In this document: in pieces, positions 2,825-26,713 of the stretch
Layout: each line of letters begins with the position of its first letter
Numbering within the stretch: position 1 is the first letter of the stretch
From: a virus
IMG/VR virus record: IMGVR_UViG_3300021247_000548
Location: 1-29,228 of that record
DNA: 29,228 bases
Reading direction: 5' to 3' (one strand)
Made by a program: the position numbers and the translations under genes
Notes under the pieces: generated by a model
What the model was told of the DNA's origin: nothing
Database searches by the model: none
The model's input: the letters and a program-made list of their open reading frames with translations, nothing else

Positions 2825-3190
2825 GATAATAACTATTATTGATTTAAGACCTGTTCCATCACATAATTCATAACAGACATTTCTACATCTGTTGTACATA
2901 CCTTATGATTTAATACCTCTTCCACCTTAGAATGTACTGGCTTCCACCTCCATTCGGTTGTGGATACTTTACTATCTAATACTTTTTTTACCGTCCTTTT
3001 TTGGGCTGCGTTTATTTCAAAAGTTTCGGATACCTTATTATTTAATACCTCTTCCATCAGCGACTCGGTAGAATAGTCAAAGCCAATCGTTGTGGATACA
3101 TTACTATTTAATACCTCTTCCACCTCTTTCGAATGGCCTCCGCCTCCAAAAGTCGTTGTGGATACCTTATTATTTAATACTTCTTCCACC
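2825..3190 (-). repeat. CRISPR-like array, 36-nt repeat / 30-nt spacer, inside an ORF
   Basis: Six units with an exact 66-nt period. Conserved 36-nt blocks lie at 2891-2926, 2957-2992, 3023-3058, 3089-3124 and 3155-3190, plus a degenerate copy at 2825-2860. Every interval is exactly 30 nt. The blocks differ from their consensus at 1-6 positions, whereas the intervals show no mutual similarity. Plus-strand blocks start GTTGTGGATACC and end CTCTTCCACC; on the minus strand they end AAGGTATCCACAAC. Period, repeat length, spacer length and a decayed terminal copy match a CRISPR array. However, 66 is divisible by 3 and the whole array is read through by the ORF 2836-3426. Its first block also encodes the family-conserved WVEEVLNNKV. 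A coding tandem repeat is therefore the main alternative. Confidence 0.85.
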
Positions 3191-3426
3191 CAAGAAGATA
3201 GTATTGGTTCAAACTCACTCTGTTCCAAAGAAAAAATACTGAAAAACGATGGGAAGAATGAGTATCTCCAATATAAACATCCCTGTATAGACAACTGAAA
3301 ATACCAATAACTATTTTCCCTATCAATAAACCATACAGAGCCATTGTACGGGATTATCTCCACATTACCCAACTCCTTATATAGTCGTTTAAAAATTAGT
3401 TGTTTTAATCTATCTGTAATAACCAT
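2836..3426 (-). CDS. Divergent MKYLITES-type paralog with 22-residue repeats
   Basis: 196 residues. Residues 1-79 resemble the neighbouring paralogs in layout: a start helix (MVITDRLKQLIFKRLYKEL), an aromatic centre, then IFSLEQSEFEPILSSWV. Residues 80-91 (VEEVLNNKVSTT) correspond to the normal family C-terminus. The block then recurs every 22 residues near 102, 124, 146, 168 and 190, with unrelated linkers such as TFGGGGHSKEV and EWRWKPVHSKV. The stop falls inside the last, degenerate repeat. Either the protein gained a repeat tail, or a CRISPR-like array grew from, or was inserted at, its 3' end while keeping frame. The family domain is solid; translation of the repeat tail is uncertain. 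Confidence 0.65.
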   Translation of the reverse strand: MVITDRLKQLIFKRLYKELGNVEIIPYNGSVWFIDRENSYWYFQLSIQGCLYWRYSFFPSFFSIFSLEQSEFEPILSSWVEEVLNNKVSTTTFGGGGHSKEVEEVLNSNVSTTIGFDYSTESLMEEVLNNKVSETFEINAAQKRTVKKVLDSKVSTTEWRWKPVHSKVEEVLNHKVCTTDVEMSVMNYVMEQVLNQ

Positions 3427-5634: not shown

Positions 5635-5916
5635 ATGAAACAAAAGGTATATACAGTAAATGACTTTGACTTCAAACCCCATGGTGTTATAGCAGGTGCC
5701 AAACAAGGTATGCTTAATCTCCCCAATGGTATTACCGTTTCAATAGTAGGTGGTGGTGAGATGGGTAGATTATATGGTGATGGTGTAGATACCTTTGAGA
5801 TAGCTGCTTGGAGAGACAATGGTGATTGGATTGACCTTGGGGATGACGATGCAATACTAAGATATGTCCCCAAAGATAAGATACCATTTATCATATTTGA
5901 TTTACTAAAAAAATAA
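5635..5916 (+). CDS. Unknown small protein
   Basis: 93 residues from the ATG 4 nt after TATATTTG (MKQKVYTVNDFDFKPHGVIA). The upstream in-frame extension is the promoter itself and is rejected. The body has Gly-rich SIVGGGEMGRLYGDGVD followed by an acidic WIDLGDDDAI patch, then a hydrophobic C-terminus. No known family recognised. Untagged; host-type promoter, so probably early. Confidence 0.75.
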   Translation: MKQKVYTVNDFDFKPHGVIAGAKQGMLNLPNGITVSIVGGGEMGRLYGDGVDTFEIAAWRDNGDWIDLGDDDAILRYVPKDKIPFIIFDLLKK

Positions 5917-9488: not shown

Positions 9489-9756
9489 GTTGTATATACC
9501 TTTTAAATTGTGATGTCAAACAACAAACTTCTTCCCTGAAAAATGGTCATTACTGTTGTATATACCTTTCAAATTGTGATGTCAAACAACGATTTGAATT
9601 CATGTTTTCCTTGTTGTATATACCTTTCAAATTGTGATGTCAAACAACTTCCACATTAGTGTCCGTGAAATTCAAGAGTTGTATATACCTTTCAAATTGT
9701 GATGTTAAACAACTCATTCCATTTTACAGAAAAATCACCGATAGTTGTATATACCT
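9489..9756 (-). CRISPR. Short CRISPR array beside a TnpB-type nuclease
   Basis: Four 36-nt repeats at 9489-9524, 9555-9590, 9613-9648 and 9678-9713, plus a partial repeat at 9744-9756. Repeats 2 and 3 are identical; 1 and 4 each differ by one base. Plus-strand repeat: starts GTTGTATATACCTTTC, centre AAATTGTGATG, ends TCAAACAAC, with GTTGT/ACAAC inverted ends. Spacers are 30 nt (9525-9554), 22 nt (9591-9612), 29 nt (9649-9677) and 30 nt (9714-9743), all different. On the minus strand, the nuclease strand, repeats end AAAGGTATATACAAC. The partial repeat keeps exactly this guide-proximal end. I therefore prefer minus-strand transcription, although a degenerate distal repeat would also fit the plus strand. 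No cas1, cas2 or other cas gene is in the window. Confidence 0.9.
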
Positions 9757-9872
9757 AAATTAATTTAAGTATTGAAGGTATTTGGTGAGTGGAACATAAT
9801 ATTCCCGTACTAACTACATCCTGTTCATTCAGGATTCACCTTTAGGGTGTACAACCACCCTGACTTAAATTA
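9744..9872 (-). ncRNA. Putative omega-RNA / tracrRNA scaffold fused to the array
   Basis: Strong nested structure between the nuclease stop and the array. An outer 10-bp stem pairs TAATTTAAGT (9761-9770) with ACTTAAATTA (9863-9872). Inside are GGTGA/TCACC (9784-9788, 9836-9840) enclosing ATCCTG/CAGGAT (9818-9835), and AGGGTG/CACCCT (9844-9861). On the minus strand, AAATACCTTCAAT (9783-9771) can pair with the repeat segment TTGAAAGGTAT with one bulge, like an anti-repeat. The RNA would then run through AGGTATATACAAC (9756-9744) into spacer 4. This matches a TnpB omega-RNA, or a tracrRNA-crRNA natural fusion. It could also be only the right-end palindrome of an IS605-type element. Expression is unproven. 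Confidence 0.6.
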
Positions 9873-9922
9873 GCCAATATGTTAAAGAACGTTTTTCTTA
9901 TTATAAATGTAAAGAATTATTT

Positions 9923-11239
9923 TTACATTGTCAAATTATCTTCCAATGATTCTTGTTTTTTCTTCCAAGTTTCAATTTTACCTTTTTTGGATTTTGGTTT
10001 TTCTTTAAACCCTTCTTTCCTTGATATGTTTATAGCTGCATTAATATCTGCATCTTGTACTTTTCCAAACATATTACAATCCACAGTTTGACAAGTGAAC
10101 TTTGAAACATCTTTTTTATCTCTTGCGGTTTCATGAACAACACCACAACAATGACAAGTTTTTGACGTGTCTTTTGCAACTACATACTCAATCTCAATTC
10201 CGAATTCTTTGGCTTTATATTCTATCATTTGTTGTAGTTGATAGTATGGCCAGCTCTTAAAAAAGTATTCATTTGAATCTTTGGTAATGCCTGTCAAATC
10301 TTCCATTCTAATTTTTCCAATAGCATTTTCTACACAATATTTAATAATAAGTCTTGACAACTTATGATTCATTGTCTCAATATAGTTATGTTCAGAATTT
10401 CTGATAGCATCAAGTTTTTTCATTTTAGTGTTTCTTCCATGACCACCTTTAGCATATTTCAGACCTTTTGATAAATCCTTTCTTCTTTTTTGAAATTGCA
10501 TTCTTGTATGTGACATAGACTCCCCGAGGTCAATTTGTGGAACATATTCCCCATCACTTCTTGCAAGTGTTACAGGTCGGTTAATACCCATGTCAATTCC
10601 AAGTACAACATCTTTATTTACCACCTCAAGTTTTTTTGGTTCAAACTTATAAGTTAGATTTAAAAAGATTTTACCATTTTGAATAGTAATGTTTGAGTCA
10701 CAACCTTTGTATTCGCCCGACAATACTCTATCAATGATAGATTTATTATCTGACCTATCTCTACCAAAGTGGAGAATAAACGTCAAATCATTTGTGATTT
10801 TAAAATGATATTTGTTATCTACAAGTGATAGTTTGGAACTTCCAAACATAAAGTAAATTGGCATTTTATCTTTTGTAAAAGAAGGTATGGAAACTTTTCC
10901 TGATATTATATTTCTTTTATTTTCAGTTAAAGTTTTTCCAACAGTATTACTTAATGCCCCTCTTATTGTTGATGGTATGTTTGAAAACTGTTTTGTTGAA
11001 TTATATGCGGTATTTCGCAATGGGTGTCCCAACAACTCTACAAATTTTTGATTTGCTGCTGATGCTGAAAATTGAGGGTTATTTTTTTTGAATTCATCTA
11101 AATTGAAAAAATCCATCAAAACATTTCTGATGATATTATTTCCAATTTCACATGACACTTCAGAGTATCGTTTAAGTAAATTGGTGATAATCTTTTTATC
11201 ACCTTTTGGAGTTAGTTCTATTTTTCTTGTCTTAATCAT
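9923..11239 (-). CDS. tnpB: TnpB-type / miniature type V RuvC nuclease
   Basis: 438 residues, the size of IS200/IS605 TnpB and of the smallest Cas12 (type V-U/V-F) effectors. Visible motifs: RuvC-I GIDMGIN (Asp216), RuvC-II MEDLTG (Glu313), the YKAKEFGIEIEYV...DTSKTC segment, a zinc ribbon with Cys362/Cys365 and Cys383/Cys388, and RuvC-III DADINAA (Asp398). All catalytic residues are present, so it should be an active RNA-guided DNase. The N-terminal WED/REC-like half is divergent. No TnpA transposase is nearby. The opposite orientation to the flanking genes marks it as an insertion. The adjacent array and structured RNA suggest CRISPR-like use rather than, or besides, homing of a transposon. 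Own promoter at 11244-11251. Confidence 0.88.
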   Translation of the reverse strand: MIKTRKIELTPKGDKKIITNLLKRYSEVSCEIGNNIIRNVLMDFFNLDEFKKNNPQFSASAANQKFVELLGHPLRNTAYNSTKQFSNIPSTIRGALSNTVGKTLTENKRNIISGKVSIPSFTKDKMPIYFMFGSSKLSLVDNKYHFKITNDLTFILHFGRDRSDNKSIIDRVLSGEYKGCDSNITIQNGKIFLNLTYKFEPKKLEVVNKDVVLGIDMGINRPVTLARSDGEYVPQIDLGESMSHTRMQFQKRRKDLSKGLKYAKGGHGRNTKMKKLDAIRNSEHNYIETMNHKLSRLIIKYCVENAIGKIRMEDLTGITKDSNEYFFKSWPYYQLQQMIEYKAKEFGIEIEYVVAKDTSKTCHCCGVVHETARDKKDVSKFTCQTVDCNMFGKVQDADINAAINISRKEGFKEKPKSKKGKIETWKKKQESLEDNLTM

Positions 11240-11243
11240 ATTA

Positions 11244-11251
11244 CAAACTTA
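11244..11251 (-). promoter_or_regulatory. Promoter of the TnpB-type gene
   Basis: Minus-strand TAAGTTTG matches TAnnTTTG and ends 4 nt before the ATG: the same start-proximal spacing as the TATATTTG-NNNN-ATG genes. Confidence 0.6.
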
Positions 11252-11288
11252 CAACATTTATTATAGATTGACAAACGAGATTACAAAA

Positions 11289-13372: not shown

Positions 13373-14065
13373 ATGAAAAAAGTTATTAGATTAACAGAAT
13401 CAGATTTAACAAGAATTGTTAAACGTGTTCTTCGTGAGAATGAGGAACAACAAATGACTGATGAAGTGACAAACTTAATCCTTAGTAACATATCCAAAGA
13501 AGATTTAATGGCTCTTGGTCAACTATATAATAGTCTTGGAGAAGATGAGTTTACTGATGTTGCTGAAGATGTAGTGGATAGTGTAATTGAGGGTGATACT
13601 GTTAGTGAATCAATAGGGTTATCTAAAAAAGGAATTACATATGATACCGAATCTGAAAAAGACAAAATTCAAGTTACAAAAATAATCACACAACTTGCTA
13701 CCACAATTATCACGTTATTGTCAGGTTCTATCTCTATTGGGGCTTATAGGACTGATGATTTTGAAAGTTCAATGGTTGCTGGAATAGTTGCATCGGCAAT
13801 GGTTGGAGCGAATTTGTTAACAAGAATACCGCATAGGTTATATACAAAACCTATCTCTAAAAAATCACAAAATTCAAGGATGGCAAAGTTAGTAGACAAT
13901 GAAATGAGAATAATTAATCCAACAGAGATGTATTTCCGTGATATTGTTGCACATTTTAAAGATAAAGGATTTCCTCAAGAGGTGGTAAATAGTTTTATTG
14001 TGGATTGGTTGGATAAAAATAATGTAAAGTTTAAGGAAGAGAAAAGAGTACGTAGAGTAAAATAA
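13373..14065 (+). CDS. Tagged two-helix membrane protein
   Basis: 230 residues. MKKVIRLTESDLTRIVKRV plus LRENEEQQ gives the full tag with L-T-E and L-R-E. An acidic region follows, then two hydrophobic segments (around 113-133, ITQLATTIITLLSGSISIGAY; around 144-165, SMVAGIVASAMVGANLL), and a basic C-terminus ending KEEKRVRRVK. It would sit in a membrane after delivery or synthesis. The tag plus membrane segments suggest an injected membrane-active protein; unproven. Confidence 0.78.
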   Translation: MKKVIRLTESDLTRIVKRVLRENEEQQMTDEVTNLILSNISKEDLMALGQLYNSLGEDEFTDVAEDVVDSVIEGDTVSESIGLSKKGITYDTESEKDKIQVTKIITQLATTIITLLSGSISIGAYRTDDFESSMVAGIVASAMVGANLLTRIPHRLYTKPISKKSQNSRMAKLVDNEMRIINPTEMYFRDIVAHFKDKGFPQEVVNSFIVDWLDKNNVKFKEEKRVRRVK

Positions 14066-18471: not shown

Positions 18472-19296
18472 TTATACGGTTACTTCTTGTTGTAGTAGTT
18501 CGTAAGCTCTTGCTAAACGAGTCATACCAATTCCACCACCGAAACGTGGGAAGAAATCGTGTGACAAGAACTCTTCTAATTCTTTTTCTACTCTTTCTTT
18601 TCCGAATAATTCAAAAAGTTTTTCAGAGTATTTTCCATTTTCTATTGTGTAGAAATTATTTCTCATTTCTTCTACGTTAGAACTTCTTTCTGCCGAACCG
18701 ATTGTTTCTTGTCCGTAAAGGATTACATCCACTTTGTTGAAAATCTTGTTTTCACTCTCTCTCATGTTCCAAAATGGGTTAGTTCTGTATGGGAAGTTTT
18801 GTAATGACACAACAGGTCCTTTCTCTTCCCACATTCTTGTTTCGTGTTCATTCTCTAAAATGGATACTCCACCATATTCTTCACAAACATCATCGTAGTT
18901 AACTTCTACTGCTTTATCAAATCCAAGATAATCTAAAAGTTCTGATTCAAGTTTTAACATTTCTTTCATTCCACCCTTTGATTCAAATTCGAACATTGGG
19001 AAAATCATTTCATGACGACCAGGTATTGGGTCTTTTTCTTGTCTATAAGACGTTGAAATACAATATACACCATTCCATTCAGGATTCTTAAGAAGTTCGT
19101 ATTCTAACCACATTTGACCCGTCTGTGGTAACGGCCATACTTCTCCTTGGTAGTTGAATGTTGTTATTGAGTGTGGATTTTCACACGCGGCCAAGATTGA
19201 TAATCTTGATTGGGTTGGAACTTCTTTAAAACCTTTGTTTTGAAAGAACGTTCTCATTTTTTGAACTAACTCGTTGTAAGTTTCTGTGTTTTTCAT
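18472..19296 (-). CDS. Class II aminoacyl-tRNA-synthetase-like core protein
   Basis: 274 residues. A motif 2-like segment spans residues 84-105 (YRQEKDPIPGRHEMIFPMFEF: Arg85, Glu87, Arg94, His95, Glu103/105). Motif 3 is FGGGIGMTRLARA (252-264, Arg260). Layout is closest to the Asp/Asn/Lys subclass, comparable to proteins annotated amino acid-tRNA ligase-related. No N-terminal anticodon-binding domain is present. It should adenylate an amino acid; the acceptor could be tRNA, a protein (as in EF-P modification) or ammonia (as in AsnA-type asparagine synthesis). A strong hairpin plus T8 lies on its own strand 35 nt upstream. A metabolic or translation-modulating phage gene; exact reaction unknown. 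Confidence 0.82.
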   Translation of the reverse strand: MKNTETYNELVQKMRTFFQNKGFKEVPTQSRLSILAACENPHSITTFNYQGEVWPLPQTGQMWLEYELLKNPEWNGVYCISTSYRQEKDPIPGRHEMIFPMFEFESKGGMKEMLKLESELLDYLGFDKAVEVNYDDVCEEYGGVSILENEHETRMWEEKGPVVSLQNFPYRTNPFWNMRESENKIFNKVDVILYGQETIGSAERSSNVEEMRNNFYTIENGKYSEKLFELFGKERVEKELEEFLSHDFFPRFGGGIGMTRLARAYELLQQEVTV

Positions 19297-25906: not shown

Positions 25907-26713
25907 ATGAAAAAAGTAATTAGACTAACTGAAAATGATTTAGTTAGAATTATAAAAAAAGTTATATCTGAACAAGATACAACACAAACTACTGGTACAA
26001 CACAAACCACCACTCAAAGTCCTGATTTATCTAATTTAGGTATAAAAACACTTAATGGTGGTATTAAAGTTGTTGAGGTTCCTCAAAAACAAAGTCGTGA
26101 TATAGAAAAAATTGCTAAACAAACTGGCGATAAAGTTTATGGGGTAGGTAAATATGAAACAATAAGTTCAGTGGGTGGAAATTATCAGGGAATGCTTGTA
26201 GTTAAAAAAGAGGCGTATCAAAAATTATTATCAGACAAAGGTATTACTGTTGTGGAAGGGGAACATTGTTCTGAACCAAGATGGACAGGTAAAAAAGATA
26301 AAAATAATCCTACCGGTTGGGTGTACACATGGAAGGTAGGTAATGATTTTTCTAAATACGTTGTCAAACCATTACCATGGGATTTATTTAATAAAATACT
26401 TAATGAAAGAGGAACACCAGGATGTCCTGACGATAGAGCAAATAGACACATGCATCCTAAACATAAAGGGGATTATTCAGGAGGTAATTTTACAGACCCA
26501 AAAGTAAGTCAAACGTCAAAGAATTTCTTTAATGACCCAACCTCAAATTCAAATCTTAGAGCTTTTTGTAATAATTTAAAATCCACAAGTTTTTATCGTA
26601 TTAATGGTTTTCCGGGTATATCGGCAAAATGTCCTGTATTTGTTGATGGTAGTGACGAAGATATGGAACGTTCATTTTCTACAAATGATTATATAAGGAT
26701 TCAAGTTATTTAA
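25907..26713 (+). CDS. Tagged protein, 268 residues
   Basis: MKKVIRLTENDLVRIIKKV then ISEQDTTQ: L-T-E and I-S-E. A Thr/Gln-rich linker (TTQTTGTTQTTTQS) separates the tag from the body, as expected if the tag is removed. The body contains HCSEPRWTGKK, a short PGCPDDRANRHMHPKHKGD segment (Cys/His-rich, possible zinc or nuclease-like site), and a C-terminal ISAKCPVFVDGSDEDM. No family assigned. Lies between the two secreted paralogs and ends at a terminator. Confidence 0.78.
   Translation: MKKVIRLTENDLVRIIKKVISEQDTTQTTGTTQTTTQSPDLSNLGIKTLNGGIKVVEVPQKQSRDIEKIAKQTGDKVYGVGKYETISSVGGNYQGMLVVKKEAYQKLLSDKGITVVEGEHCSEPRWTGKKDKNNPTGWVYTWKVGNDFSKYVVKPLPWDLFNKILNERGTPGCPDDRANRHMHPKHKGDYSGGNFTDPKVSQTSKNFFNDPTSNSNLRAFCNNLKSTSFYRINGFPGISAKCPVFVDGSDEDMERSFSTNDYIRIQVI

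Follow-up and report, generated by a model that had tools for sequence, protein, structure and literature searches.

A virus-borne type V-F1 CRISPR-Cas module with a compact Cas12f and a truncated first repeat joined to its tracrRNA

The main finding of this work was the identification of a virus-borne type V-F1 (V-U3) CRISPR-Cas module, composed of an intact Cas12f of 438 aa, a tracrRNA and a mini-array, in an entire IMG/VR virus record of 29,228 bases, hereafter called the window. We estimate a probability of about 0.8 that this is a type V-F1 system cutting DNA under a guide RNA, of which the targeting parts alone have been retained. The apparent novelty sits in the RNA arrangement, which looks new: the tracrRNA runs directly into a half repeat and the first spacer, an arrangement common to the window and its nearest relative, locus L017, and a candidate for a natural single-guide RNA.

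Results

The module occupies positions 9489-11274 of the minus strand, where cas12f is followed by the structured RNA and then by the array (Table 1), and is antisense to both neighbouring genes, which lie on the plus strand as the first-pass annotation had described; the adjoining ORFs are of about 100 aa. The lengths given there for four 36-nt repeats with spacers of 22-30 nt and for the nuclease ORF were also correct, each full repeat being at most one base from the consensus, and a chance origin of four near-identical, evenly spaced 36-mers is effectively excluded. That annotation did not include a fifth, truncated copy of the repeat, which, read in RNA direction, lies one 66-nt period before the full repeats begin. 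The exact repeat of the window had no match in viral_contigs.

Table 1. Features of the type V-F1 module in the window (positions of the window; all on the minus strand)
Feature	Position	Strand	Remarks
Putative cas12f promoter, TTG-N20-TAAGTTTG	11244..11274	-	Ends 4 nt before ATG; pattern match
cas12f (V-F1/V-U3), 438 aa	9923..11239	-	RuvC D216, E313, D398 and zinc ribbon intact
Putative tracrRNA and array promoter, TTG-N20-TACATTTA	9904..9934	-	Pattern match
boxA-like element GTTCTTTAACA	9880..9890	-	5' end of predicted transcript; presumed function
tracrRNA core, stem 1 and long-range helix	9778..9863	-	Covariance-model match, E 3.1e-6
Anti-repeat 1	9772..9781	-	Predicted to pair in trans with full repeats: 10 bp, one bulge, -9.2 kcal/mol
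Anti-repeat 2	9762..9772	-	Predicted to pair in cis with truncated repeat: 11 bp, -9.0 kcal/mol
Truncated first repeat, joined to tracrRNA	9744..9761	-	3' part; 3-nt internal deletion, read by eye
Spacer 1, 30 nt	9714..9743	-	Guide of candidate natural single-guide RNA
Repeat 1	9678..9713	-	35/36 to consensus
Spacer 2, 29 nt	9649..9677	-	
Repeat 2	9613..9648	-	36/36
Spacer 3, 22 nt	9591..9612	-	
Repeat 3	9555..9590	-	36/36
Spacer 4, 30 nt	9525..9554	-	
Repeat 4	9489..9524	-	35/36

Two observations on repeats were made in passing. Elsewhere in the window, a minus-strand gene (2836-3426) contains in-frame 66-nt repeats at about 3040-3180 (EVLNxKVSTT units), the spacing of which mimics a CRISPR array. 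In L017, a 'spacer' of 5 nt (5670-5674) separates two full repeats and all later units carry one common repeat variant, which may be read as slippage or recombination inside the array.

The window protein belongs inside the Cas12f family, and its first description, as 'TnpB-type' and as lying near the transition from TnpB to Cas12, was not sustained. The PADLOC models matched it over its whole length (Cas12u3, 2.7e-94 over residues 1-414; Cas12f, 3e-94 over residues 1-412). Among NCBIfam models, the general guided_TnpB scored 8e-52, above its cut-off, Cas12f2 2e-28, below its own, and the IS605 model 1.6e-16, and the domains named by Pfam were OrfB_IS605 and Cas12f1-like. A phmmer search against the PDB returned 21 matches at E <=1, with Al3Cas12f chains ranking first. 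The intact catalytic site and zinc ribbon reported earlier were borne out by alignment: D216, E313 and D398 share their columns with D225, E324 and D401 of locus L024, the protein of which is AsCas12f1 (E 1e-287 to PDB 7wju), the RuvC columns are conserved in 17, 17 and 18 of 18 aligned rows (window counted), and the zinc-ribbon cysteines C362, C365, C383 and C388 are identical in all 18.

Identity between the window protein and the relatives aligned here ranged from 26 to 43%, the highest value being that of L017. In a tree of 49 proteins, a small sample of nine TnpBs split from the 40 other rows (support 97/98), the window and L017 were joined on a deep branch of their own (100/98), and a set of 19 (97/90) comprised these two, L047, Al3Cas12f, CnCas12f1 and others, the window and L017 diverging first under a midpoint root. 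Duplicates, fragments and repeat copies (including L013, L014, L015, L018, L021, L058, L060, L062 and L063) and the TnpB-like locus L031 were omitted from the tree. The first-pass annotation had considered that the protein might group inside ordinary TnpB and that related loci might be devoid of arrays; instead, the nine TnpBs stand apart and arrays lie beside many of the relatives. Searching for these relatives, a single-protein scan of viral_contigs gave four pattern matches, none of them a relative, and alignment searches then gave 13, 1 and 19 loci.

When the AlphaFold2 model (18-row alignment, pLDDT 81.7, pTM 0.54) was compared with the PDB by Foldseek, ranks 1-22 were all Cas12f (identified by title, as 8hr5 for CnCas12f1 and 9nzo for Al3Cas12f), the first TnpB appeared at rank 23, and LaTranC, a TnpB-CRISPR intermediate, at rank 41. 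LaTranC was also absent from the 21 phmmer matches described above, and with a four-sequence family profile, itself biased towards AsCas12f, it scored 2.3e-8 against 5.5e-136 for AsCas12f. A LaTranC-like intermediate was rejected on these three counts, LaTranC being the sole TranC compared, and an ordinary TnpB was rejected on the whole-length Cas12f models, the tree split and the leading rank of Cas12f folds.

Among the relatives, a phage Cas12f that adjoins an array (L052:3761-5188) has S and Q at the columns of RuvC D216 and E313 and may be nuclease-dead, judging by these substitutions. At L046, a Cas12f with an array has as its neighbour a serine-resolvase gene, judged by eye to be of the IS607 kind; the genome is of the class of L022.

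The 130 nt of structured DNA between cas12f and the array, which had been noticed earlier, is a tracrRNA homologous to Cas12f tracrRNAs. A covariance model, with a structure named by hand, was built from 11 tracrRNA cores of ten relatives (two from L056; L045 was extracted and left unused), excluding the window and L017, and was run with filters off on the window and the L017 record (66.6 kb). Its best two matches were the tracrRNA of the window (Table 1) and that of L017 (L066 3278-3361, E 2.5e-5), the next being at 0.24. Applied more widely, to 29 sources, the model reached E 0.005 in 12, and at this threshold it misses the AsCas12f1 locus and several of its kin, where the tracrRNA was read by eye. 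In an alignment of 25 matches, drawn from 20 sources, pairing held in 98.9% of cells and covariation was 0.733, against 0.219 in shuffled and 0.035-0.087 in slid structures, figures that lean towards the structure because the alignment was fitted to it; pairs changed on both sides numbered 8, against 6.6 in shuffles (99/500 shuffles as high). No Rfam family matched the window at the gathering threshold.

The trans pairing of anti-repeat 1 is marginal in the window (58/1000 shuffles equally good) and strong in L017 (4/1000). The cis hairpin of anti-repeat 2 is weak, since 31/1000 shuffles were as stable and hairpins of similar size are common (106 clusters over both strands). The truncated repeat of L017 forms a weaker pairing (-7.2 kcal/mol) than does the corresponding stretch of a full repeat (-9.2 kcal/mol). 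In other loci (L051, L053, L054, L056, L003, L010 and L021), tracrRNA copies flank cas12f, or two tandem tracrRNA-array modules lie upstream of one cas12f, and at L054:3685-3952 cas12f and tracrRNA adjoin a mini-array whose repeats resemble those of type I-E.

The proposal that the nuclease has its own promoter was supported by sequence patterns only. A pattern of the TTG/TAnnTTTG type, which is the promoter type of Bacteroidota, precedes both the gene and the RNA, and such an element was present before 7/54 hand-picked gene starts (cas12f included) versus 0.8% of random 60-mers; sigma-70-like sites, however, were not enriched (8, shuffle mean 11.4), and the loose promoter pattern is frequent, with 25 occurrences on the minus strand of the window and 24 on the other. 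Upstream of the tracrRNA, TTG-N20-TAYATTT(A/G) has identical length in the window, L017 and L047, and in all three a boxA-like GYTCTTTRAYA follows the promoter-like element and precedes the tracrRNA. The boxA-like pattern matched 9/66 loci, a count that is partly circular because the pattern was drawn from the window, L017 and L047: six are places or copies of the window or L017, L047 accounts for one, and in L050 and L064 the match lies elsewhere. The occurrence of boxA at natural CRISPR arrays is cited in passages of PMC7862264, where GTTCTTTAAAA is quoted for one array, compared with GTTCTTTAACA in the window. The capsid protein of L017 is T4-like, and Flavobacterium phages are among its best matches, preceded by a Microcystis phage and an uncultured huge phage. 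The host probably belongs to the Bacteroidota.

In the window and in L017, the tracrRNA continues directly into the 3' part of the repeat and then into the first spacer with the array register kept, and the tracrRNA and spacer 1 guide are contiguously encoded in the genomic sequence of the window. The tracrRNA-side repeat was compared with a hand-typed consensus of the locus in 29 array-bearing loci, 'full' being at least 62% identity, and it was recognisably full in 27. The two exceptions were the window and L017, each with 18/36 ungapped, matching in the 3' part only, at 66 and 64 nt, respectively, before the first full repeat; the kept part amounts to 13 exact nt in the window and 15/17 in L017 (by eye). 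The 27 include L012, where no array-side tracrRNA was placed, and likewise L020, whose model match lies across the gene, as well as the diverged first repeats of L059 (19/28), L064 (26/30) and L047 (32/36). After a second tracrRNA copy, the repeat is 28/36 in L053 and about 6 nt short in L056. Omitted from the comparison were same-place copies (L001, L028-L030, L040-L043, L013, L014, L057, L060, L062), loci at contig ends or with no array observed (L002, L015, L026, L027, L048, L049, L051, L055, L061, L063), the diverged arrays L005 and L021, the unlike array L054 and the TnpB loci.

Three other loci (L052, L053 and L058) have a first full repeat that begins within 45 nt of the tracrRNA core, a distance indicating that tracrRNA and first guide are cis-encoded there too. 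A further stage of this arrangement, with the unneeded half of the repeat lost, may be what the window and L017 represent.

In agreement with the description of the module as being without cas1, none was found in the window or in the other virus records searched (0/20, from 32 IMG/VR records, many of them fragments), the control being positive in 9/14 genomes. A protospacer search of 42 phage and 2 plasmid records gave only matches of E 0.8 or worse among those listed, and exact 20-mers of spacers 1, 2 and 4 had no match in viral_contigs. No good self match was detected, and autoregulation or self-targeting by the spacers was rejected, since the first 10 nt of each spacer have no match in the window outside the array.

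Discussion

Our findings agree with the earlier view of a miniature virus-borne type V system, as Cas12f, its own tracrRNA and an array occur together in a virus record. We infer that a promoter located at the 3' end of cas12f would produce a single RNA consisting of a boxA-like leader, the tracrRNA, the half repeat with spacer 1, and three further spacers between full repeats. Cas12f would then be loaded by either of two routes. In one, it would take up the continuous tracrRNA-spacer 1 RNA, a natural single guide in which anti-repeat 2 provides the cis pairing; in the other, it would take up the tracrRNA with crRNAs derived from the full repeats, the two being paired in trans through anti-repeat 1. 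The RuvC site would then cut matching double-stranded DNA, the most probable targets being phages or plasmids that compete within the same cell.

We propose only tentatively, at odds somewhat below even, that guides have a dual supply in this phage pair, a fused natural single-guide RNA for spacer 1 and a split tracrRNA and crRNA for the other spacers, with a boxA antitermination leader driving the supply; the evidence for the fused form comes from two sister phages. The omegaRNA of TnpB is thought to have been split into tracrRNA and crRNA. If true, the dual supply would be a natural reversal of that splitting, and the first repeat would have dropped the half made unnecessary by fusion. The tracr-L of Cas9 is reportedly a natural single guide that represses its own genes. 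Literature searches, not worded for exactly these features, returned neither a fused first guide nor a boxA-like leader of a Cas12f tracrRNA.

The tracrRNA-half repeat-spacer 1 stretch is a candidate natural single guide, though half repeats elsewhere in two other arrays also allow simple decay. The half repeat would then be a decayed terminal repeat and spacer 1 a fossil without guide, while the system would run on the tracrRNA and separate crRNAs, an explanation that disputes the fused guide and not the type V-F1 system, and to which we give an even chance. Degenerate end repeats are common, many arrays decaying at the tracrRNA-distal end, and two units of L052 and one of L012, all located away from the tracrRNA, retain the 3' half alone, which favours decay; repeats proximal to the tracrRNA diverge elsewhere too (L059, second module of L056), and the cis hairpin and anti-repeat energies are weak. 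However, both phages keep the spacer-adjacent 3' part at the normal period, whereas their far-end repeats are 35/36, a full first repeat is recognisable in nearly all loci compared, and anti-repeat 2 of the window pairs with the truncated copy over 11 bp (Table 1).

A second alternative concerns the target and likewise leaves the type V-F1 system untouched. The module might serve gene regulation or host takeover rather than attack on rivals, its guides binding or cutting the host chromosome or its natural single guide repressing genes of the phage itself, in the manner described for tracr-L. Some spacers of huge phages aim at host genes (part of PMC7162821), and the L052 relative, devoid of two catalytic residues, suggests that some phage Cas12f may only bind. 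In the window, though, the RuvC residues are intact and the starts of the spacers do not recur outside the array, and we regard regulation as unlikely. Finally, an ordinary IS605/IS607 TnpB with an omegaRNA and an unrelated array alongside is highly improbable, because the OrfB_IS605 domain and the guided_TnpB score that would suit it are opposed by far better whole-length Cas12f scores, by the separate position of the TnpBs in tree and fold ranking, and by the match of the tracrRNA model.

The closest known systems are other compact Cas12f. AsCas12f1 (7wju, 8j12) and SpCas12f1 (9i8y) resemble the window protein in size, fold, RuvC site and zinc ribbon, and also in the position of the tracrRNA between gene and array, the order cas12f1-tracrRNA-array having been published (PMC8548392, in part). 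The AsCas12f1 locus differs in having a full first repeat, a long array and no match to the boxA-like pattern. Al3Cas12f (PDB 9nzo, 9nzr) and CnCas12f1 (8hr5), compact Cas12f with tracrRNA and crRNA, fall in the same half of the tree as the window, although the window and L017 hold their separate deep branch. In the published guides, the tracrRNA and repeat are trimmed and joined by a tetraloop (passages of PMC13186708).

Type V systems on mobile elements have been described as well. Huge phages encode new V-U variants and V-F subtypes, whose arrays are short and nearly all of which lack acquisition genes (PMC7162821, in part), and viruses from landfills carry compact type V effectors, the highlighted ones without acquisition genes; the latter differ from the window in that the Results of that report have none grouping with Cas12f1, while its Discussion has V-F1/V-U3 among the nearest (sections of PMC12607003). 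In the portions of both reports considered here, neither a tracrRNA-joined guide nor a boxA leader is described (PMC7162821, PMC12607003). Type V-U Cas14a with arrays has been reported on mobile elements of Clostridium (parts of PMC8473940), and, given this and the phage V-F and V-U systems (PMC7162821, in part), the module in itself is not a novelty. Mini-CRISPR arrays of archaeal viruses also place few spacers on a virus, and superinfection exclusion has been proposed for them, but these arrays are without cas genes, whereas the window virus brings its own nuclease and tracrRNA (extracts of PMC6858448). In Alicyclobacillus phage MMB025 (L003), an annotated CRISPR adjoins a 'transposase' that was identified here as Cas12f.

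Compact Cas12f are sought as genome editors, and normally require the engineered fusion of two RNAs. If the fusion is phage-encoded, it would supply a guide design in finished form, and also a natural test of RNA splitting or rejoining in type V evolution. The window and L017 add an early branch to Cas12f, and the boxA-like leader suggests a phage route to secure transcription of the guide array via a host antitermination signal.

Two further features of the window were observed outside the module. A tRNA-ligase-like protein (18472-19296, minus strand) shares 47-54% identity with proteins from nine records of T4-like cyanophages and huge phages, a similarity suggesting that the window is a fragment of a large phage. 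In addition, 16 ORFs within 1185-28973 (e.g. 1185-1496, 13373-14065 and 25907-26713) match a pattern for a common N-terminal leader that ends in L/I-x-E, for example MKYLITES or MKKVIRLTES; the pattern has one match in the L017 record and one in L047. In T4-type phages, the capsid-targeting sequence is cut by the prohead protease, and by analogy these ORFs are perhaps packaged head proteins with a leader of that type.
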